DNA from: Tolumonas osonensis
Lineage (GTDB): Bacteria > Pseudomonadota > Gammaproteobacteria > Enterobacterales > Aeromonadaceae
Direction of reading: 5' to 3'
Assembly: GCF_014202415.1 (NCBI RefSeq)
Contig: NZ_JACHGR010000001.1
Location: 62,001-126,000, forward strand
Length of the DNA: 64,000 bases
Of the stretch, positions 49,136-63,563 are shown in pieces (the stretch's first letter is position 1; the number at the start of each line of letters is the position of its first letter). The notes below the pieces were generated by a model that saw nothing but the letters and a program-made list of their open reading frames with translations, did no database searches and was not told the DNA's origin. A program made the position numbers and the translations under genes.

Positions 49136-50509
49136 TTATTGCCACGGCGCGCGTTGTTTGACCTGCGTCCAGATCGGACTTTCCAGTGAGCGGCAGATCT
49201 GACGTGCCAGCTCGACCATGCCGTCATAACCGGCATAGGCATGTTCACGTTCCTGATTGATATCGAGGAATGGCAGCCGTGCCTTGTACGCGGTGAACAT
49301 GTTGCGGCCACCGGCGATCATCAGATCAGCCCGGTACTGGTACGCGACATCCAGCAGATTGCGGGCGTTGCCGTCTTCCAGCATCAGCGCGTTATCCCCC
49401 ATCAGTTCACGGATACGGGCTTTGTCTTCTTCGGTCGATTTACGGGTGCCGCTGGCCACTACTTCCATGCCCAGATCCTGCAGGGCAGCGACCACCGACC
49501 ACGACTTCACGCCACCGGTATACAGCAGCACCCGCTTGCCTTTGAGACGGGCACGGAACGGCGCCAACTGTGCTTCGGTCTCGGCCTCTTTACAGGCAAT
49601 CAGCGCTTTAGTACGGGCGATCAAATCAGGATCGCCCAGCATTTCGGCGACGGTCAGCAGGGATTTGGAGGTATCGGTGACACCGTAAAAACTGCCTTCA
49701 AACCACGGCGTGCCGTATTTGGTTTCCAGTTTGCGCGCCACGTTGATCAGCGCGCGGGAGCAGACCAACATGTTCAGTTCCGCCCGGTGCATGGTCTGCA
49801 CCTCATGGAAACGGGCATCGCCGGCCAGCGTGCAGAGAATGCGTACCCCCAGCTCATCAAACAGCGGCTGCACATTCCAGAACTCGCCGGCAATGTTGAA
49901 TTCGCCAATCAGGGCAATGTCGTGTCCCTGCTCAGCCGGAATGGCGCAGTCAGCCGGCCATGGAGCAGGCTCTGCCGTACCGACCACCCGATCCACCATA
50001 ACCTCACCGGCGATGCGGTTACCCAGATTCTTGCTGCCGTAAAAGCCGGCGGCGTCCACTGGGATCACCGGCACCCCGACCTTGCTTTCCGCGGCTTTGC
50101 AGATGGCAATAATGTCGTCACCTTCCATCGCCGGCACGCAGGTGTTGTAGACAAACACCGCCGCGGGCTGGTAACGATCGACAATATGTTTCACCGAGTG
50201 ATAGAGGCGGCGTTCACCGCGCCCCATGATCACGTCCTGTTCATTTAAATCGGTGGTAAACCCCAACCGGTACAGCGCCGGACCGGAACTGCGGGCTCCC
50301 CGGTTATCCCATGAACTGCCGGTACAACCAATCGGACCATGCACCAGATGCGCCACATCGGCGATCGGTAACAGCGTGATTTGCGCACCATCAAACGCAC
50401 AGCCACCGGCGGTTGCCCCCGGTTTCGGCGCACTGCAGCCGGATTTGGCTTTACTGTTATGGCCACAGGCGGGCTCATCCATCAATGCCGCTATTTCGTT
50501 GCCTTTCAT
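49136..50509 (-). CDS. nifE: FeMo-cofactor scaffold subunit NifE
   Basis: 457-aa paralogue of NifD. Cluster-type cysteines occur in [16 protein letters not shown] and [13 protein letters not shown]. It starts with a second cysteine group, [17 protein letters not shown], common in NifE N termini. AGGAGG before ATG 50509. It heads nifENX-fdxB and has its own sigma-54 promoter and NifA site in the 207-bp gap after nifY. Confidence 0.96.
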
Positions 50510-50551
50510 CGCTCCCTCCTGAAATGTGCGCGGGCTCTCATTTTTGAGTGG

Positions 50552-50567
50552 TGCAAGGAGCAGTCCA
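50552..50567 (-). promoter_or_regulatory. Sigma-54 promoter of nifENX-fdxB
   Basis: Minus-strand TGGACT-N5-TTGCA: -12 box perfect, -24 box keeps TGG and correct GG-N10-GC spacing. 43 nt upstream of the nifE start. Confidence 0.8.
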
Positions 50568-50600
50568 TGTTTAACTTATTGATTTAAATGATTTTGTTAT

Positions 50601-50616
50601 TGTCGCTTTCACAACA
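50601..50616 (-). promoter_or_regulatory. NifA-type site upstream of nifE
   Basis: TGT-N10-ACA (50601-50603 and 50614-50616), only about 34 bp from the -24 box, closer than the usual enhancer distance. Confidence 0.6.
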
Positions 50617-50716
50617 AACACGACAGGACGCTATCACCCCTGCGGATTTCACCCCCCAGCCAAATCCGCAAGGGTAATAGCTTTTGATATCGCGGTGGTT
50701 CGTGACGCCTGAGCAT

Positions 50717-51403
50717 TCACTCCAGCTCGGATAACTCATCGTTAAAACGCTTGCCCAGATCGTCCTTGCGTCCCAGCGCTTTCGCCAGCCAGGGCGGCAG
50801 TTGCCCCTGCATCAGCTCCTGCAAGGCATCCAGTTGGGTACTGATTCGGTTGTCTTTCTTGATTTTGACCGGATGAATACCATGACGAATGATGCGCGCC
50901 GCCGCCGGGCCGCCAATCGCTTCACAGAACAGCAGATGACAGCTGTGCAGCAGGCGGGCGCGGGTTTCGTTATCTTCCAGCGATTCATCCGCCACAAAAT
51001 GTCGGATGTCGATCAGCTGTGAGCCGTTGCCGGTGACCTGATAGATAAAGAACAGATGGCAATTGCCGAAGTGACCATTCACATGCAGACCATCATTCGA
51101 GGAAAACGCGACCCGCAGGGCATCCGCTTCCGCCACGGCTGGTTTCGGATCCAGATGTACCGGCAGTTCACCCTGCAGACATTCCAGCAGTACCTGCCAG
51201 CGTGCGTTGCTGAATCCGGCCAATTCGGCCGGCGCCTGAGACTGCAGGGTCTCGACCGTGAGTTTTTCCAGTTGCGCCGTGCTCAGCGGGCCATTCAGCG
51301 CGCCGCTGATCCAGTCAAACAGGATCCCTTGCTCCACTTCCGGTACGGCCTGTGCCAACGCGATAAGACGCCAGTAAACCTGACTTTCCAACAGTGCTTT
51401 CAT
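50717..51403 (-). CDS. nifY: NifY/NafY-type FeMo-cofactor-binding protein
   Basis: 228 aa. The C-terminal ~110 residues are the dinitrogenase iron-molybdenum cofactor-binding fold (LRVAFSSNDGLHVNGHFG, then HLLFCEAIGGPAAARIIRHGIHPVK); the N-terminal ~90 residues are helical, like the SAM-like domain of NafY. It holds apo-NifDK or FeMo-co during enzyme maturation. Position after nifT matches nifHDKTY. ATG 51403 is chosen because AGGAGG is 5 nt upstream; an adjacent GTG 51406 is too close. Confidence 0.9.
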   Translation of the reverse strand: MKALLESQVYWRLIALAQAVPEVEQGILFDWISGALNGPLSTAQLEKLTVETLQSQAPAELAGFSNARWQVLLECLQGELPVHLDPKPAVAEADALRVAFSSNDGLHVNGHFGNCHLFFIYQVTGNGSQLIDIRHFVADESLEDNETRARLLHSCHLLFCEAIGGPAAARIIRHGIHPVKIKKDNRISTQLDALQELMQGQLPPWLAKALGRKDDLGKRFNDELSELE

Positions 51404-51424
51404 CACCGCCTCCTGTGATCAGAA

Positions 51425-51643
51425 TTAATCGTCTTCGCCGGCGCGTTTCAGACGCAGCGTGACCGGCAGTGAGGGTTTTCCCTGCGGCGCCAGGAAATAG
51501 GCTTCACCGTTATCCAGTTCAACGCGGCCGCCCCAGTTGTCATCGGCTTCAAATTCAAGCTGTGCAACTTTTGCTTCCAGATCGCGCTTGGCGATGTAGC
51601 AGTACAAACCATCGTCGTGCTGACGGAACATGATGTTAGGCAT
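51425..51643 (-). CDS. nifT: NifT/FixU family protein
   Basis: 72-aa protein found after nifK in many diazotrophs. Family segments: PNIMFRQHDDGLYCYIAKRDLEA and WGGRVELDNGEAYFLAP, cited as landmarks near residues 2-24 and 37-53. Function not established. ATG 51643 has AAGGAAGGAA 7-10 nt upstream. A strong hairpin separates it from nifK, so its level may be lower than that of nifHDK. Confidence 0.93.
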   Translation of the reverse strand: MPNIMFRQHDDGLYCYIAKRDLEAKVAQLEFEADDNWGGRVELDNGEAYFLAPQGKPSLPVTLRLKRAGEDD

Positions 51644-51704
51644 ATGACAATTCCTTCCTTTGCAACCACTTGAATTTCTTATGATCGATATGATTGAGAT
51701 AAAT

Positions 51705-51738
51705 AAGCCCGGAACGTTGCAAGAACGGCTCCGGGCTT
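51705..51738 (-). terminator. Hairpin in the nifK-nifT spacer
   Basis: A 9-bp stem (AAGCCCGGA / TCCGGGCTT) with an inner CGTT/AACG stem, followed on the minus strand by ATTTATC. It may act as a partial terminator or protect the nifHDK 3' end. Confidence 0.7.
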
Positions 51739-51781
51739 CGGGTGGAGCAGGCTTCCGGCCCGCTCCCGATAACAACGACGA

Positions 51782-53347
51782 TTAACGAACCAGATCGAAG
51801 TTGTAATCTGTTTTGCCCAGTTCCATGGTTTCGCTGTCCAGTTTTTCCATCACAGCGTTCACCAGTGTGGTCAGCATGTACATGGCGCCTTCGTAACCGA
51901 GGGTGGTCATGCGATGCAGGTGATGACGGTCGAAAATCGGGAAGCCCAGACGGATCAGTGGGACTTCAAACGCTTTGCCCTTCGCCAGGGTGTCGCGCTG
52001 AATGAACTTGCCGTAGGAGTTACCAATCATGAAGTCCGGTTTGTTGGTGAACATCAGTGAACGGAAGTGCCACAAATCGTTACCGACATAGACTTCGCTG
52101 CCCTGGCCGTAAGGTGAATCCGCCAGCATTTTCTCAATGGCTTTTTTCCATTTTTTGCTGCCGTTGTTGCATAGGATCACGGTTGGTTCACAGCCCAGTT
52201 CGAGCAGGAATTTAACCAGACCTTCGACGAAATCAGGGTCACCGTAGACACCGAATTTCTTGCCGTGCAGCCAGGTGTGAGAGTCGGTGATCATGTCGAC
52301 CAGACGACCGCGTTCCAGCTCCAGTGACGCCGGGATCGCTTTGCCAGTCAGTGCCGAGACTTTCATCAGGAAGTCGTCAGTCCATTCCAGACCCATCGGG
52401 ATGTTCAGCTCGGTGCCAGGCTGGCCCCAGGATTCTTTCACCACTTTCTTGGTTTTCACCAGGTGCCATGGTTGCAGCATCAGCGTATCAATGGCGTTTG
52501 GCGCATCTTTCATTTCGGCCTGAGTGGTACCACCGGCATACATGCGGTACTGACCATCCGATGGAGTGTCCAGCACTTCTGACGGATCAGACAGCATGGA
52601 GAATGGCACACCCATTTCGGTCAGCATGCGCTTGATCACGCGGTAGTTACCCAGATAGGTTTCAAAACCGGTCACGATGTTCAGTTTACCGTTGCTGCCT
52701 ACGGTGTAGTCGCCGCCGGCAGTGAAGGTATTGGCAAAGCCTTCGAACATGTTGTCCCAACCGGTGATGTGGCTACCGACGAAACTAGGAGTATGGGCAT
52801 ACGGCACCGGGAAATCTTGCGGAATAAAGCCGTCTTTTTTCGCGTTGTTGGTGAATGCCTGCAGGTCGTCACCGATAACTTCCGCCATACAGGTGGTCGA
52901 TACCGCAATCATTTCCGGTTTGTAGAGCGCCAGCGCGTTCTGCAGACCATCGTTCATGTTGGCGTGACCGCCGAATACGGCTGCATCTTCGGTCATGGAG
53001 TCAGACACACAAGCCACAGGCTCACGGAAATGACGGTTGAAGTAAGTACGGAAGTAAGCCACACAACCCTGTGAACCATGCACATACGGCAGGGTTTTCT
53101 CAAAACCCAGGGAGCACAGCACCGCACCCAGTGGCTGACAGGCTTTCGCCGGATCAATGGTCAGCGCTTCACGTTTGAAGTTCAGATCTTTGTATTCTTC
53201 GGTGGTGGTCCACTCGAACACTTCACGTACTTTTTCCGCATCGTGCGCTTCTTCGAAGTTGGCACGTTTACCTGCAAACAGGTTTTGATATTCGTCCTGT
53301 TCGAACAGCGGATAACAGGATTTGATGTTCTCTACATTCTGACTCAT
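51782..53347 (-). CDS. nifK: Nitrogenase MoFe protein beta subunit
   Basis: 521 aa. P-cluster ligands Cys70, Cys95 and Cys153 are at the same numbers as in Azotobacter vinelandii NifK (CQPLGAVLCSLG, HGSQGCVAYF, VSTTCMAEVIGDD). With NifD it forms the catalytic heterotetramer. GGAGAATG sits just before the start. It follows nifD by 66 bp. Confidence 0.98.
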   Translation of the reverse strand: MSQNVENIKSCYPLFEQDEYQNLFAGKRANFEEAHDAEKVREVFEWTTTEEYKDLNFKREALTIDPAKACQPLGAVLCSLGFEKTLPYVHGSQGCVAYFRTYFNRHFREPVACVSDSMTEDAAVFGGHANMNDGLQNALALYKPEMIAVSTTCMAEVIGDDLQAFTNNAKKDGFIPQDFPVPYAHTPSFVGSHITGWDNMFEGFANTFTAGGDYTVGSNGKLNIVTGFETYLGNYRVIKRMLTEMGVPFSMLSDPSEVLDTPSDGQYRMYAGGTTQAEMKDAPNAIDTLMLQPWHLVKTKKVVKESWGQPGTELNIPMGLEWTDDFLMKVSALTGKAIPASLELERGRLVDMITDSHTWLHGKKFGVYGDPDFVEGLVKFLLELGCEPTVILCNNGSKKWKKAIEKMLADSPYGQGSEVYVGNDLWHFRSLMFTNKPDFMIGNSYGKFIQRDTLAKGKAFEVPLIRLGFPIFDRHHLHRMTTLGYEGAMYMLTTLVNAVMEKLDSETMELGKTDYNFDLVR

Positions 53348-53388
53348 AACATTCTCCTTCCCGCGCCACTCATCTGTGAACTAACGGG

Positions 53389-53417
53389 GTAATGGAATCA
53401 ACTACCGGGGCCATTAC
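53389..53417 (-). other. Hairpin overlapping the nifD stop codon
   Basis: GTAATGG / CCATTAC form a 7-bp stem with a 15-nt loop in the nifD-nifK spacer; the stem includes the nifD TAA. Possibly an mRNA stabiliser. Confidence 0.5.
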
Positions 53418-54862
53418 GCGCTTTTCTTCCATGGCGCAGTCTGTTTCGACCAGCACGGGTTGTTCAGTGTCATATCCATGTCACGGGCGAAGATCGCGAA
53501 ACCGTCATAACCGTGGTAAGGGCCTGAATAATCCCAGGAGTGCATCTGACGGAACGGAATACCCATTTTCTGGAAAATGAATTTTTCTTTGATACCGGAA
53601 CCGATCAGGTCAGGTTTCACCGCCTTCACGAATTCTTCGAATTCATAACCAGTCACGTCGTCAAACAGCAGCGTGGCTTCTGGCAACTCTTTCAGCGTAC
53701 GGTCGTAGTCATCGTTGTGCGCGAATTCATAACCGGCACCAACAATTTCCATACCCAGATCTTCATAAGCACCAATCACGTGACGTGGACGCAGACCACC
53801 GACGTACAGCATGACTTTCTTGCCTTCCAGACGCGGTTTGTATTTCGCGATAACAGCTGCAGTCTGCGCTTCGTATTTGGCGATCACTTCTTCCGCTTTT
53901 TTCTGGATGGTTTCGTCAAACTGGGCCGCGATTTTACGCAGTGATTCGGCAATTTTGGTCGGGCCGAAGAAGTTGTATTCCATCCACGGGATGTCGTACT
54001 TCTCTTCCATATGACGCGAGATGTAGTTCATGGAACGGTAGCAGTGCACCAGGTTCAGTTTTACCTTCGGTGTGTTTTCCATTTCCGCCAGGGTACCGTC
54101 ACCAGACCACTGAGCTACTACGCGCAGACCGATCTCTTCCAGCAGAATACGGGAAGACCAGGCGTCACCACCGATGTTATAGTCACCGATGATCGCGACG
54201 TCGTAAGGTGTACCTTCGAATTCGGTTTCATCACGGTTACCAAGGATCCAGTCACGAACTACGTCGTTCGCAATATGGTGACCAAGAGACTGAGACACAC
54301 CGCGGAAACCTTCACAGCGTACAGGCACGACGGTTTTACCGGTTTTCGCTTTCGCCTGTTTGGCCACGGATTCGATATCGTCACCGATCAGACCAACCGG
54401 ACATTCTGACTGTACGGTGATGCCTTTAGACAGCGGGAACAGCGTTTCCATTTCTTCGAGAATTTTCGCCAGCTTTTTATCGCCACCGAATACGATGTCT
54501 TTTTCCTGGAAGTCAGAGGTGAAGTTCATGGTGCCGAAGCTGTTTACACCAGTCAGACCAGTGTAGTAGTTACGACGACCAGCACGAGAGTACTGACCAC
54601 AACCGACAGGACCATGCGACAGATGGATCATGTCTTTGATTGGGCCGAACACTACCCCTTTGGAACCGGCGTAAGCACAACCACGGATGGTCATAACGCC
54701 CGGCAGAGACTTACGGTTAGAAGTAATACATTTGCTGGCTTTTTCCAGCGACGGGTCGTTAACAGTCAGATGTTTTTTACGATCCTTACGCGCTTTTTCC
54801 GGATAGGCTTCGAGCACTTCCTGAATTAACGCCAGATTCTCTTCGCGAGTTCTGTTAGTCAT
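53414..54862 (-). CDS. nifD: Nitrogenase MoFe protein alpha subunit
   Basis: 482 aa. P-cluster ligands Cys62, Cys88 and Cys154 and FeMo-co ligands Cys274 and His441 are in place, as are Gln191 and His195, which act in substrate reduction. The protein is therefore a standard Mo nitrogenase, not VnfD or AnfD. ATG 54862 is chosen by homology ([16 protein letters not shown]) with AAGGAA upstream. It is 67 bp after nifH, with a hairpin between. Confidence 0.98.
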
Positions 54863-54894
54863 AGCAGTAATTCCTTGAATGGGCGGACAATCCG

Positions 54895-54917
54895 GGCTGG
54901 CAGCATCCCTGCCAGCC
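54895..54917 (-). other. Hairpin in the nifH-nifD spacer
   Basis: A perfect 9-bp GC-rich stem (GGCTGGCAG / CTGCCAGCC) with loop CATCC, no T-run. A structure here would stabilise the nifH message relative to nifDK, since much more Fe protein than MoFe protein is needed. Confidence 0.65.
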
Positions 54918-54929
54918 GCCGGGTAAGAC

Positions 54930-55844
<915 letters not shown>

Positions 55845-58834: not shown

Positions 58835-58867
58835 ACCTACTGGCACCATGATGCCGTGTCAGTAGGT
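58835..58867. terminator. Hairpin shared by tpx and the GH16 gene ends
   Basis: A 12-bp stem (ACCTACTGGCAC with GTGTCAGTAGGT, one G-T) and a 9-nt loop between convergent genes. It contains the GH16 stop codon and last codons. No T-run on either strand. Confidence 0.55.
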
Positions 58868-59604
58868 ATATTCTGGCTTGGTGTAAAACTAAAGTTCTTA
58901 ATGATCACTTCCACTTCCTGACCATCGGTTGGTGCCAGCCCCTGCCGTAACCACAGATTGATATGAAGTGGCATCGTCACCTGCGGGATCGCTTTCCGGT
59001 AGTTTTTGGGCGCGAATTGCCAGCTAGCGATTTTGTCGCTGAGTGGCGGTTCGTCACTGCCATTGTCATTGAACATCTGAAAACATACCGTAGTACTATT
59101 CCAGCTATAACGCTGCACCGTATCCGTTCCGGTTGGCGCAACGGCAAACCGCTGAGTGCTCAGAGGTAGCGTGGATACGGCCGGATAGACCGTAAAATTC
59201 CCGAGTGGTGCCGCTGCATCTCCCCATCTGGCCATTTCAATGTCGATTTCATTCTGTCCATCCGGGCCTTGGTAATGAAATAAACCGAGAACGACATTTT
59301 CATTTAATTGATCTAACTGACCACTGACATGCCATTCATAATTACCAAAGCCTTTATTGGTCAGTTGATAAACTTCCGCGGCATACCAGGCCCCGTTCAG
59401 ATAACTTATCTTTAAATGCAATTGTCCGAGTTCATCCACCCAGGCGTTATCCTCACTCCAGTTATTCGGTCCCGGCCCTGCCACCCCGCTTTTCACTTCC
59501 CATTGCTCACCGGCAAACGAGAGGGTTTTCGCCACTACGTTACCCGCCGAACAACACAACCCGGCAAGCAGCCCTAGCCATCCGTATTTCTTTGTTATCC
59601 GCAT
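58837..59604 (-). CDS. Secreted GH16-family beta-glucanase
   Basis: 255 aa with a signal peptide (about 1-25; cleaved near VVAKT). The GH16 catalytic signature is GQNEIDIEMAR, giving nucleophile Glu119, Asp121 and acid/base Glu123. The family includes lichenases and laminarinases that cut beta-1,3- and beta-1,3/1,4-glucans. GGAGG precedes ATG 59604. It is the last gene of a four-gene polysaccharide operon, 52 bp after the HlyD-type gene, suggesting it trims or releases the polymer made by the GT2 synthase. Confidence 0.88.
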   Translation of the reverse strand: MRITKKYGWLGLLAGLCCSAGNVVAKTLSFAGEQWEVKSGVAGPGPNNWSEDNAWVDELGQLHLKISYLNGAWYAAEVYQLTNKGFGNYEWHVSGQLDQLNENVVLGLFHYQGPDGQNEIDIEMARWGDAAAPLGNFTVYPAVSTLPLSTQRFAVAPTGTDTVQRYSWNSTTVCFQMFNDNGSDEPPLSDKIASWQFAPKNYRKAIPQVTMPLHINLWLRQGLAPTDGQEVEVIIKNFSFTPSQNIPTDTASWCQ

Positions 59605-59656
59605 TATTATTGCCTCCGTGCATTGTTATGAAACATGAAATGACCCTGCCATTTCG

Positions 59657-60730
59657 TCAGAATATCGTGCTGATATGCGACCAGACATTATTCCGGGTGT
59701 AATGAAAACGCACCGATACCGACAGGCCCTCAATCACTTGTGCCGGCATGTGCTCCAGTGTTAACACCACTTTCAGTGCGGCCTTGTTATTCTCGAACGG
59801 GCCGGCCAGTTGCGCCGGCACCTTCTCGGTGATTTTAGTCGGTTCACTCACCGTGGCGGCGATGGTTTCACCATCCGGTAATGACACGGTTGCCTGTTGT
59901 CCGATAGCGGAGAATTGCACGTCAGAAGGCGTCAGATAAGCTACCACCACCGGTTGTGAACGAATGGCATACAACATTAACGCGTCGCCGCTACGCACCG
60001 TCATCCCCGGCTGTACCAGCACATCTTTGACTTCCCCATCCATCGGGGCCACAACCTGCAGCTCCGCTTGTCTGGCTTTCAGCAGTTGTAAACGTAGTTT
60101 GAGTTCGTTCAGATACTGCGCCGCGCTGCCGCTGATTTTATCCTGGTTCAGCGCGTACAGATTGCGGTTGCTTTCCAGCAGCAACAATTCGGCATTCATT
60201 TTCAGCTGACTGACATTGGCCCATTGTTCTAACTGCAACAATCCGTCCTGATTGAAATTCATGTATTTCTGATACAACGCGCTTTTTTCCTTCAGATCCG
60301 CATCGGCAATATCAATTTTCTGTTTCAGTAGTGTTTCCTGTTTTACCCAGTCATCGGTTAATGTTTTTTCCAATGACGAAATGTTATTTTCCAGTTGCTT
60401 TATTTCTGCCTGTAAAACCGGTTTATCCAGACTAATCAGCACATGACCCTGTTTCGCCGACTGTCCCTGTCTGATATTGACGGCAGAAATAACGGCATCC
60501 TGGCTGGCCTGAATATGTAATGGCTCCGTTGTCAAAATACCCGGCGATGCCACAACCACTTTATCTTTCGTGATATACCAGACGAAAATCAGCACCGGGC
60601 TGATAATTAAAAACAGAATCAGATACCAGCGGAAACGAAATGCAACCCGTTTTCCTGCGCCATAATTGATATTCACACCGCCGTGCTGTGCGGGATTTCT
60701 TTGTTTGTCGAGATGAAATTTGATTTTCAT
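59657..60730 (-). CDS. HlyD-family membrane-fusion protein (BgsB/Alg44-like role)
   Basis: 357 aa. One transmembrane segment (about 34-53) anchors a periplasmic part with a biotinyl-lipoyl-like half (ASQDAVISAVNIRQGQSAKQGHVLISLD), a long coiled coil (about 105-215, many Leu/Gln/Lys) and a second lipoyl half plus beta-barrel (APMDGEVKDVLVQPGMTVRSGD), each quoted only in part. No PilZ domain is seen, unlike Alg44. It is 1 bp after the GT2 gene. Probably carries polymer across the periplasm. Confidence 0.85.
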   Translation of the reverse strand: MKIKFHLDKQRNPAQHGGVNINYGAGKRVAFRFRWYLILFLIISPVLIFVWYITKDKVVVASPGILTTEPLHIQASQDAVISAVNIRQGQSAKQGHVLISLDKPVLQAEIKQLENNISSLEKTLTDDWVKQETLLKQKIDIADADLKEKSALYQKYMNFNQDGLLQLEQWANVSQLKMNAELLLLESNRNLYALNQDKISGSAAQYLNELKLRLQLLKARQAELQVVAPMDGEVKDVLVQPGMTVRSGDALMLYAIRSQPVVVAYLTPSDVQFSAIGQQATVSLPDGETIAATVSEPTKITEKVPAQLAGPFENNKAALKVVLTLEHMPAQVIEGLSVSVRFHYTRNNVWSHISTIF

Positions 60731-60731
60731 A

Positions 60732-62063
60732 TCAGAAACGCTTTCCTCTTTTTAATACCCACCACGGCGCCATATTGCTTTCCTCATGACTACGCCGGAT
60801 CTGTTCATTGAACACGGCAACGGCATTGATTATCCGCATGACAAAGCCATACAGCGGATAAAAAGGCAGCCATTTCAGATAATGAATATCCTTGTCGGGC
60901 CGCTCGGAAACGGCAAGCAGAAACACCAGAAAATGCAGCACGGTTAAAAACAGATAACACAAATACTGAATGGCAAATCCGGCAACGACCACCGGTGCCG
61001 GATAATTAATGAAAACCCACACGGTGTATAAAACAACCAGATAAGGCAGCAGGATATTCTGGACTACGCCATAGAGCACCGTGGAGATATAATTTTTCCA
61101 GCCCAGCAACCGGGGGGACAATCCCTGTTTATGTTTTCGCAGATAAAGAAAATAGAGGTCCCCATCCCACCTTATTCTTTGCATGAACAAAGATTTAAAC
61201 GTAACCGGAACATCGGTGTATCCCATGGCATGCGTTGCAAAGGGGATTCTTAAACCGGGATGTCTGGCCATATATTGTTTAATACGCAGCGTCATATCCA
61301 GATCTTCACCCGAGTGCGTATCCCATCCGCCAATCTGGCGGACAAACCGGGTGCGAAAGGCACCAAAGGCACCGGAAATGCTGTTGATAATGTTCCATTC
61401 CGCCAGCCCGGTTTTAGCCCCATGCAACGAGATCATGTATTCCATGGCCTGCATACGGGAAACCAGACTCGCTTTGTCATTTCTAACCCGCAACGCGCCA
61501 CCCACCGCCGGCACATCAGGGTCGGTAAACTCCTTTACCACCTGGCCGACCATATCATTATCAAATGACGTATCGGCATCCAAAGCAAAAAACAGCTCGC
61601 CTCTGGCAATACGTAACGCGGCATTGGAGGATGACACCCGCCCTCCGCGCTGCCATTTCGGCAGAATAATCAGATTCCGGCGCGGATAACGCGCCACAAT
61701 ATCCCGGCACTCCAGCGCAGCCTGATAAGTGTGCGTGTTCACACTGGCACCATCAACCACCGCAATAATCTCGATATGGCCGCTATAGAGCTGTTCACAC
61801 AGTGTCAGGATCGTCTTTTTGATATCCTCACCTTCGCTGTAACAGGTAATGCCGCAGGTCACGACCGGCCGGTAATACGGTTTTTCCCGCTCATGGTGTT
61901 TACGCCAGAACCAGCGGCCGATACCCAGCAGTACCATCAGACTCAGCGGCACATCAAATATCAGAAACATTGGCAGAAATAAGGCGACCGCCGACAGATC
62001 CGACAATAAGGTATGTTTAAACTGCAGAAAAAAATGACCGATTATCAGCAGCTGATCACTCAC
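60732..62063 (-). CDS. GT2-family processive polysaccharide synthase
   Basis: 443-aa inner-membrane glycosyltransferase family 2. An N-terminal helix pair (about 10-50) leads to the cytosolic catalytic domain with VDGASVN, FALDADTSFDND (DxD), SGEDLDM (catalytic GED) and MQRIRW, the QxxRW motif of processive synthases; four C-terminal helices follow. It resembles the cellulose/curdlan/BgsA/Alg8 group. Start is GTG 62063, overlapping the upstream stop (GTGA). It lacks a long C-terminal regulatory tail. Product probably a beta-glucan, given the GH16 neighbour. Confidence 0.88.
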   Translation of the reverse strand: MSDQLLIIGHFFLQFKHTLLSDLSAVALFLPMFLIFDVPLSLMVLLGIGRWFWRKHHEREKPYYRPVVTCGITCYSEGEDIKKTILTLCEQLYSGHIEIIAVVDGASVNTHTYQAALECRDIVARYPRRNLIILPKWQRGGRVSSSNAALRIARGELFFALDADTSFDNDMVGQVVKEFTDPDVPAVGGALRVRNDKASLVSRMQAMEYMISLHGAKTGLAEWNIINSISGAFGAFRTRFVRQIGGWDTHSGEDLDMTLRIKQYMARHPGLRIPFATHAMGYTDVPVTFKSLFMQRIRWDGDLYFLYLRKHKQGLSPRLLGWKNYISTVLYGVVQNILLPYLVVLYTVWVFINYPAPVVVAGFAIQYLCYLFLTVLHFLVFLLAVSERPDKDIHYLKWLPFYPLYGFVMRIINAVAVFNEQIRRSHEESNMAPWWVLKRGKRF

Positions 62064-63406
62064 GAAGTAAATTCCCCGAGCAACTGCTGTACCCAGATGG
62101 TCGCATTATCATCTAATGTCGGGTCCGGCAACGCGCGCAGTCTGAAATCAAGCCGCAGATGCTGTGTCGTCTGTTCTTCACTTAAGGCGATGAGTTTGCC
62201 GGTGATCACACTGACATGATTGGCCGGTGTATTCGGCAGGAAAAACAGCAGCATATCATCCCGGTAATGACAACAGACATCCGTCACCCGCAATACCGAT
62301 TGCAGACGCTGCGTCAGGGCATCAATCCGGGTGATCGCTTCCGCCTCGCCCAATTGATAAATCACGGTGGCCAACTCGGTATACCGCAGCGCCACGACCA
62401 AGTGCGAATTCTGATGACGCAACGCCAGTTTGTTTTGCCACAGTAACAGCCAGTAAAAATGCTCTTCCGTAACGTGCGCGCCGATCCATTCCGGGATCAG
62501 ATTTCGCTGGGCGCCATTGCGCATATACATCACACCGCTATCAGTCAGTTTGTAGTGCCGGATAGACCGCACGATCAACTGCTCCGGTGTCTGTTCATGC
62601 CCGGACTCCAGACAACGCACCTTGACCGCACCATCCACAAACAAGGCATGACAGCTGTGACAGCGGTAATTTTCCAGCGGGCGATCGTAATCCACCCCGA
62701 TATGCCGTAACTGGCTGAGACAATTCGGGCAGGAAAGATGACCGCTATGTAAGAAGTCGGTCTGTGTGGCCACATGACCACAGGCGAAACAATGCAGGGC
62801 TGATTCCGCCGCCACATCAATGCTGCCGCATTCCGGACAGGCTTCGACATAATTCAGATGGCCGCTGTGACAAACAGAACAATAACGCACCCGATCCACC
62901 AGCGTGGCGCCTTCGATCAGGCCTTCCCGTTCCAGCGAGTGAAGCCAGGGAAACAATTCATTGTCCTGATCCACCCAGAGCGCCGCCAGCGGATAATCAT
63001 ACAGACGGGGGCTTTCCGGATGCGGTTTCGCCATCAGGGTTCGTCCCGGCCATAACCAGAGATACGTCAGTAAGCGTTCCGTCAGCCCTTTTTCCGGATC
63101 CACCTTTAATATCTGATAGCGCTGCTCAAACTGTTCTATCCTGATCAGGAGATCATCCGGCGGCAGACCATCCGATAAATACGGGGATAACGGACTTGGC
63201 TGCACAGTAAAAACCGGAAACGCAAACCAGTGGGGATGCTGTCTGATATGGATTAATAACGCATCCTGTTGTTGCGGATCTGCCGGATCAAGAATGAAGC
63301 AGGCCGTTCCATGGATGACATCAGGTAATGAAGTGTACTGAAGTACCGGCAGTGGATGACGCAGAATATTATTTGACGCCTGTGACCCTATCAGTAATAA
63401 CTTCAT
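62060..63406 (-). CDS. TackOD1-type zinc-ribbon protein with degenerate GGDEF-like end
   Basis: 448-aa soluble protein. The N-terminal ~100 residues resemble a receiver-like alpha/beta fold (LLLIGSQAS, FILDPADP). The centre (about 170-260) has four Cys pairs, CSVC/CPEC, CFAC/CPNC and CHSCH, read as zinc ribbons of the TackOD1 family. The C-terminal ~150 residues look like a nucleotide-cyclase fold without a GGDEF motif (TRIDALTQRLQSVLR, CCHYRDDMLLFFLPNT). First gene of the operon, coupled to the synthase; probably a regulator of it. Confidence 0.72.
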   Translation of the reverse strand: MKLLLIGSQASNNILRHPLPVLQYTSLPDVIHGTACFILDPADPQQQDALLIHIRQHPHWFAFPVFTVQPSPLSPYLSDGLPPDDLLIRIEQFEQRYQILKVDPEKGLTERLLTYLWLWPGRTLMAKPHPESPRLYDYPLAALWVDQDNELFPWLHSLEREGLIEGATLVDRVRYCSVCHSGHLNYVEACPECGSIDVAAESALHCFACGHVATQTDFLHSGHLSCPNCLSQLRHIGVDYDRPLENYRCHSCHALFVDGAVKVRCLESGHEQTPEQLIVRSIRHYKLTDSGVMYMRNGAQRNLIPEWIGAHVTEEHFYWLLLWQNKLALRHQNSHLVVALRYTELATVIYQLGEAEAITRIDALTQRLQSVLRVTDVCCHYRDDMLLFFLPNTPANHVSVITGKLIALSEEQTTQHLRLDFRLRALPDPTLDDNATIWVQQLLGEFTS

Positions 63407-63563
63407 CTATATCCAATACCAAGACAATAAGTTGAATGATCCGGCGAATATACCAATAAAAATCATTTGATATACATAAAATATGTAATCAAATGTAATA
63501 AGGTGCGCCACGCCAAATTTTATTATCATTGAACAAGTTATCCGTCATAAGAAGGATCAGGTC

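Follow-up and report, generated by a model that had tools for sequence, protein, structure and literature searches.

An Mxd-type exopolysaccharide operon of Tolumonas osonensis with a TackOD1-containing candidate c-di-GMP receptor and an additional GH16 gene

Among the described exopolysaccharide systems, that of Sinorhizobium couples the family 2 glycosyltransferase (GT2) BgsA to its membrane-fusion partner BgsB under the control of cyclic diguanylate (c-di-GMP), and PelD-type receptors consist of an inactive GGDEF domain with an RxxD motif plus GAF and membrane parts. In the former system, c-di-GMP is sensed by the C-terminal tail of BgsA itself (PMC5567048; here and below, literature statements refer to the available excerpts of the papers). 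The mxd operon of Shewanella oneidensis, mxdABCD, is reported to be necessary for biofilm structure, and mxdA and mxdB mutants share an aggregation defect (PMC3691769). MxdA has been reported as an effector that binds c-di-GMP (PMC7666153, PMC11395469), its domain being described as a degenerate GGDEF and its influence on c-di-GMP levels as indirect (PMC3409153); moreover, it reportedly interacts with CheY3 and the cyclase PdgA (PMC7666153). The TackOD1 domain is described as an output domain of receivers in archaeal signalling, with a function called obscure (PMC5847659), and in the available excerpts of the open literature the term was met in that archaeal context only and was not found named in MxdA. 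Here, we describe a block of four minus-strand genes, termed A to D, in a stretch of 64,000 nucleotides from Tolumonas osonensis (positions 62,001 to 126,000 of contig NZ_JACHGR010000001.1; in the following, the window). The positions, junctions and motifs which an earlier note had read from these letters were confirmed by the list of open reading frames (ORFs), Pfam and alignments.

With a probability of roughly 0.83, the block represents an Mxd-type synthase-dependent exopolysaccharide system in which A is a c-di-GMP receptor that gates the GT2 synthase B via its TackOD1 domain, while C serves export and D chain processing. According to this proposal, the catalytically dead GGDEF domain of A would bind c-di-GMP via its RxxD I-site, and the presumably zinc-rich TackOD1 domain, the likely contact in the gating of B, would relay the bound state to the inner-membrane synthase and thereby activate it. 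B would then polymerise a nucleotide sugar and extrude the chain, which C would lead across the periplasm towards an outer-membrane channel encoded elsewhere in the genome, and the secreted enzyme D would trim, release or clear chains. The proposal is carried by the gene set, the homology of A, B and C to mxdABC, a GGDEF signature that has been lost although RxxD is kept, the GGDEF fold in the model of A, the kinship of D to GH16 enzymes and the genomic context of TackOD1. The general classification as a synthase-dependent exopolysaccharide operon with a separate regulator and a co-encoded hydrolase, already made in the earlier note, is supported.

The connection to mxd was established by means of the mxd-promoter primer Pmxd-fw-300 (PMC3691769), which has an exact match in one of the 97 genomes of a Shewanella sample (S. 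oneidensis-type locus L057). Downstream of the primer, homologues of A, B and C follow in this order with identities of 40%, 52% and 31% over the aligned parts, respectively, and the native portion of the reverse primer is found, by eye, directly ahead of the A gene. The A protein of this locus scores 238.7 bits against TackOD1, and like its counterpart in the window it joins this domain to a degenerate GGDEF in which the RxxD motif reads RVTD. Judged by sequence, Mxd membership is claimed for the A-B-C core and not for a complete mxdABCD operon.

Gene A matches the TackOD1 model PF18551 far above its curated threshold (215.6 bits, cut-off 32, 5.5e-64), and it reaches the GGDEF model of Pfam with 23.9 bits at a cut-off of 23.8. 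For a closer comparison, 24 A proteins were aligned, leaving out L028 (from the isolate of L023), L073, L075 (A split, two ORFs) and L076 as well as the plasmid and phylum-sample loci introduced below; RxxD was scored later for all of these rows except L076. The GG(D/E)EF signature of active diguanylate cyclases is lost in 24 of 24 aligned proteins, RDDML standing at its place in the window protein. The RxxD motif, which according to the published rule lies five residues ahead of the signature (PMC5567048), is retained at the I-site position in 22 of the 24, including the window protein. Across residues 300-448 of A, just three columns, W323, R373 and D376, reach at least 90% identity. Conservation is highest in TackOD1, where ten of the 11 Cys columns are invariant and the remaining one is kept in 22 of 24 rows, and where the mean pairwise identity amounts to 37.5% versus 17.5% and 20.9% in the flanking parts (20 rows, after removal of four near-duplicates from the 24). 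Among the rows scored later, RxxD is present in L079, L080, L081, L028 and L075 and in 13 of 14 rows from the phylum sample, two of which repeat genomes of the 24-row alignment. Structure prediction, which had been put forward as a check, was performed for A with AlphaFold2 and yielded a model with a mean predicted local distance difference test score (pLDDT) of 85.1 and a GGDEF fold in the C-terminal part; in addition, the profile matches diguanylate cyclases. Structural alignments with PleD, DgcR and WspR cover residues 1-448 at root-mean-square deviations of 13-21 Å, and a receiver-like fold of the N-terminal part is only suggested by the model. The postulated separate regulator with a cyclase-like but GGDEF-less domain is borne out. 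As for its designation as a non-canonical sensor, the adjective stands, but the protein is not an unknown sensor, since c-di-GMP binding has been reported for MxdA, its orthologue (PMC7666153). The features of the locus are compiled in Table 1.

Table 1. Genes, domains, motifs and a candidate operator of the four-gene block; positions refer to the window
Feature	Position	Strand	Basis and remarks
Gene A, MxdA-type protein (N-terminal alpha/beta part, TackOD1, degenerate GGDEF), 448 aa	62060..63406	-	ORF list
TackOD1 domain, residues 107-287 of A, 11 conserved Cys	62546..63088	-	PF18551
I-site motif R373-V-T-D376 of A	62279..62290	-	Alignment; precedes RDDML, the degenerate GGDEF, by five residues
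Gene B, MxdB-type GT2 synthase, 443 aa, GTG start	60732..62063	-	ORF list and GT2 models
DAD motif of B (D162, D164)	61572..61580	-	Both Asp invariant in 23/23 rows
GED motif of B (G252, E253, D254)	61302..61310	-	D254 invariant, 23 rows
QRIRW motif of B, residues 295-299	61167..61181	-	Q295, R296, R298 and W299 invariant, 23 rows
Gene C, MxdC-type HlyD-family membrane-fusion protein, 357 aa	59657..60730	-	ORF list and Pfam
Gene D, divergent GH16 enzyme (predicted), 255 aa	58837..59604	-	ORF list, motif and profile
GH16-type catalytic motif E119-I-D121-I-E123 of D	59236..59250	-	Alignment
Candidate operator upstream of A (inverted repeat TACATA-AAA-TATGTA)	63473..63487		Pattern search

The distribution of TackOD1 was investigated in a class sample of 274 genomes and a phylum sample of 398 genomes, which are not independent because some genomes are common to both. 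In the class sample, TackOD1 occurs above its cut-off in 14 genomes, and an MxdB-like GT2 (expectation value E <= 1e-30) in ten, all of which belong to the 14, with no such GT2 in any genome devoid of TackOD1; the two matches lie 483-594 bases apart (Fisher 1.8e-15, phylogeny ignored). In an eleventh genome, G247, which has no MxdB-like GT2 at this threshold, a GT2 split over two ORFs adjoins TackOD1. The phylum sample contains TackOD1 above cut-off in 15 genomes with 16 loci (14 fetched and read, the window and G162), and in 16 of 16 TackOD1 has a GT2 gene and an HlyD-family gene no more than about 2 kb away, two gene orders being observed; the neighbourhood search suggested beforehand found all three close together throughout this sample. 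In G162, L119 and L121, about 2 kb separate GT2 from HlyD, and in L127 the HlyD match comprises 94 residues at the end of a contig. The homologue in L119 shows a weak match to PelD_GGDEF (18.2 bits, cut-off 27). PelD-type receptors resemble A in the inactive GGDEF with RxxD within an exopolysaccharide system, but A carries TackOD1, shows no GAF or membrane parts and is accompanied by a GT2 instead of Pel enzymes.

Plasmids extend this picture to the Alphaproteobacteria. Among the best 40 of 305 plasmid records with a GT2 match, 11 were opened, namely six alphaproteobacterial loci (L078, L086, L097-L100), three gammaproteobacterial loci of the 52-54% type (L079-L081) and two ica/pga loci for contrast (L087, L101); H8, H12, H15, H17, H19, H25, H35-H38, the remaining rows among the 40 and the 265 records beyond them lie outside this selection. 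TackOD1 is located upstream of GT2 in all six alphaproteobacterial loci, whereas in the contrasting pga locus PgaB takes this place. The Methylocystis gene following GT2 remains below the HlyD-type cut-offs of Pfam, yet it is matched by the profile of C. The input parts differ: in Alisedimentitalea, separate genes encode TackOD1 and the GGDEF-like part, and in Roseibium and Palleronia TackOD1 is found downstream of a receiver domain above its cut-off. The latter arrangement equals that of the archaeal receiver-TackOD1 regulators, for which, by contrast, the function is stated to be obscure (PMC5847659). Two of the loci, L098 and L100, encode the receiver-TackOD1 protein upstream of GT2 and HlyD with Hpt genes nearby, and in L100 also a histidine kinase gene. 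Because pairing was found in 16/16 and 11/14 cases and persists despite changed inputs in Alphaproteobacteria, TackOD1 seems to accompany this synthase constantly, whereas its inputs can be exchanged. At even odds, in our estimate, TackOD1 is a dedicated module of a processive GT2-HlyD synthase family, which would dock on the GT2 and gate it under differing input domains. In Gammaproteobacteria, this input would be a dead GGDEF whose I-site reads c-di-GMP; some Alphaproteobacteria would use a phosphoreceiver, and in others the input would be split off or lost. The window would then contribute a variant of the TackOD1-GT2-HlyD system with a GH16 enzyme added to the operon.

Several observations weigh against the proposed c-di-GMP gating of B by A or its placement within Mxd. 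RxxD is absent from L025, L029, L073, L132 and the six alphaproteobacterial plasmid loci, so that c-di-GMP control through this motif is not universal, although rows distant from the window align loosely and single cases there are weak. Four of the 14 TackOD1 genomes of the class sample lack an MxdB-like GT2 at E <= 1e-30: besides G247, these are G221, whose TackOD1 protein is full-length but whose 13-kb locus contains no GT2, G174, with a short TackOD1 match and no GT2 within 8 kb, and G151, with a 70-residue match and none of the four proteins matched in the fetched piece. One review places the interaction with c-di-GMP at MxdB instead (PMC8683041). In the window, no c-di-GMP riboswitch was found at gathering score, the sole Rfam match being a tRNA. 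Finally, the correspondence to mxd ends at the fourth gene, as D has no match in L057, where an unrelated ORF of 129 codons occupies the place of mxdD, and D is not MxdD. An alternative in which TackOD1 and GT2 are merely co-transcribed, A acting on another target such as chemotaxis or a diguanylate cyclase hub and synthesis proceeding ungated by A, would accommodate the reported contacts of MxdA with CheY3 and PdgA (PMC7666153) and its indirect effect on c-di-GMP (PMC3409153). We consider it improbable, given that Gamma- and Alphaproteobacteria alike retain the pairing despite changed input domains and that deletion of mxdA or mxdB leads to a common aggregation defect (PMC3691769).

With respect to the synthase, B is matched above cut-off by the GT2 models of Pfam, and it is indeed short and without a regulatory tail, as had been noted: conserved residues of the family run to P433 and V436, and a c-di-GMP-sensing C-terminal tail of the BgsA type is lacking. 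The best curated NCBIfam model is PgaC_IcaA, which B reaches with 136 bits at a cut-off of 422.3 and thus not as an equivalog. In pairwise comparison within a set of 33 GT2 sequences, the E values amount to 7e-27 for IcaA and 2e-21 for PgaC versus 0.058 for S. meliloti BgsA (taken from pSymB and verified by seven residues numbered in PMC5567048) and 0.13 for BcsA. The profile of B finds hyaluronan synthase as the top solved structure (1.8e-22), followed at a distance by cellulose synthase (about 4e-12). In a tree of the 33 sequences, B and MxdB fall into one 25-row clade (98/99) and BgsA pairs with BcsA (100/100), the order among the PgaC, BcsA and MxdB lines being left unsettled; since the long reference branches triggered a warning of the tree tool, the kinship claim rests on the scores too. 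Genome G385 encodes a PgaC (50% identical to that of E. coli) together with an MxdB-type GT2, which implies that these are separate lines. By sequence scores, B is closer to PgaC/IcaA and hyaluronan synthase than to BcsA/BgsA. Two identities were tried and rejected: kinship to BgsA, which the earlier note had favoured, on account of the E value and the tree, and identity with PgaC on account of the bit score and the coexistence of both kinds in G385. A firm grouping with non-glucan synthases, named there as counter-evidence, is approached but not reached, as B resides in its own clade with MxdB outside PgaC.

Gene C is matched above cut-off by HlyD_3 and Biotin_lipoyl_2, and no PilZ match was obtained in the Pfam scan, in agreement with the initial description of a fusion protein lacking this domain. 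In L065, L068 and L079, an additional protein with an outer-membrane-efflux domain above cut-off is encoded between GT2 and HlyD. These TolC-type proteins possess an extra C-terminal part with conserved W, E and D residues, which yielded no PDB profile match at E <= 0.1 and no convincing family, and perhaps constitutes a new hydrolase type. In L075, the counterpart is present as two overlapping ORFs, the second of which was scanned and gave a weak efflux-domain score. These additions fit an export apparatus to which some lineages would add their own channel or chain-processing part. L079 itself, a TackOD1-GT2-TolC-type-HlyD set, resides on a 29-kb Aeromonas caviae plasmid typed as mobilizable.

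In the case of gene D, direct scans gave no Pfam match at E <= 1, PF00722 included, and no NCBIfam match at E <= 0.1. Its E-I-D-I-E motif is nevertheless of the catalytic E-x-D-x-E type of GH16, and it is intact in three of three congeneric copies and in seven of nine rows of an alignment comprising these three and six plasmid-borne relatives; the two rows without the full motif are both from Acidobacteriota. The profile of this alignment retrieved 13 PDB rows, the best with E 3.2e-11. Of the top 11, nine are named (1,3-1,4-)beta-glucanase, the other two bearing just the label 'circularly permuted', and the weakest two of the 13 are a lectin and an Rv0315 orthologue. Scanned directly with PF00722, three of the nine members match at E <= 1 (best 7e-5). 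The N terminus resembles a signal peptide as read by eye. D is therefore classified, by motif and profile, as a divergent relative of the GH16 1,3-1,4-beta-glucanases with predicted activity, which is in line with the co-encoded hydrolase anticipated for this operon. Its occurrence is narrow, with three copies in two of 61 relatives and one occurrence among the 398 phylum genomes, namely the window's own. A tblastn search yielded six plasmid records, and the best of these, an annotated GH16 protein of Eleftheria terrae with 47.6% identity, is the nearest relative outside the genus and is surrounded by unrelated genes. The profile of D has no match in 27 loci examined for TackOD1/GT2/HlyD context, and the other A-B-C loci that were searched likewise yielded no relative. 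This absence, together with the unrelated surroundings in Eleftheria, means that D is no marker of the polymer of the family; either it entered the operon within this genus, or other lineages have lost it.

The nature of the polymer, whose composition was not found stated in the available excerpts of the Mxd literature, is thus approached from diverging indications: D points to a glucan, the nearest scored families of B to amino sugars and a single neighbouring gene to galactose. The original proposal of a BgsA/BgsB-like system producing a beta-1,3- or mixed beta-1,3/1,4-glucan, with D as matched hydrolase, agrees with the layout of a GT2 and a membrane-fusion partner, a feature shared with Sinorhizobium along with the proposed control by c-di-GMP, and with the intact motif and glucanase profile of D, which alone points to glucan. 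It appears unlikely, because B displays no meaningful similarity to BgsA or BcsA and has no tail of its own, and no D relatives were found at the other loci searched. An amino-sugar or galactose-type polymer (PNAG-, chitin-, hyaluronan- or GalNAc-like), on which D, if acting, would do so with a shifted GH16 specificity, is a somewhat better though still tentative candidate. It is favoured by the top curated model and the top PDB profile match of B, and by the Alisedimentitalea plasmid (L078), where a 59%-identical GT2 and an HlyD gene are followed by galE (L078:8306-9316), a hint at the sugar of that locus' polymer. This neighbour is a single case, however, the PgaC_IcaA cut-off is missed by a wide distance, G385 keeps both GT2 kinds, and Pfam detects no deacetylase among the four genes. 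Furthermore, although PgaC/IcaA is the nearest curated family, the partners in the window are HlyD and TackOD1 and not PgaB, PgaD or IcaD. Under the favoured Mxd-type reading, D would act on whichever polymer B produces.

Regarding operon structure, A and B overlap by four bases, B and C are separated by one base, and D follows C after a gap of 52 bases, from which a common transcript with A-B-C is inferred. Terminator-like sites are more numerous in the window than in shuffled sequence (11 versus a mean of 4.4), and one of them, a hairpin at 59655-59637 between C and D, may cause partial termination ahead of D; promoter-like sites are fewer (one versus a mean of 6.6). The perfect inverted repeat upstream of A occurs once in the window and in none of 100 shuffles, the pattern having been picked after being seen. 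It is a candidate site for some regulator. A variant with one base changed precedes both operon copies of a congener (G379), whereas the 350 bases preceding 22 further A genes contain no repeat of this type.

The congener carries the complete four-gene block twice (L058, L059), the copies being 91% identical over 4.9 kb. One shares the flanks that the block has in the window, and the other is a 4.9-kb copy, near which 50 bases match the sequence around the start of the dehydrogenase-like gene that neighbours the block in the window; because of this match, the second copy probably derived from a window-type site. Conservation of all four genes together, whose absence in relatives had been named as counter-evidence, was accordingly found in the window genome and this congener only, while A-B-C without a D relative recurs in other genomes. 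Two contigs of one BD1-7 isolate (L023, L028) each carry A-B-C with equal scores, reflecting either duplication or assembly overlap. Elsewhere in the window, nitrogenase-type genes span 49136-55814: Pfam identifies the product of 49136-50509 as a nitrogenase component 1 protein, and NifD- and NifH-like ORFs, recognised by eye, lie at 53414-55814.

Taken together, the comparison ties an obscure Cys-rich domain, so described in the available part of PMC5847659, to one likely job, the control of a GT2 exopolysaccharide synthase, and it predicts the residues by which MxdA would read c-di-GMP. Moreover, the GH16 enzyme encoded in the operon of the window genome and its congener would provide a direct handle on the Mxd polymer.

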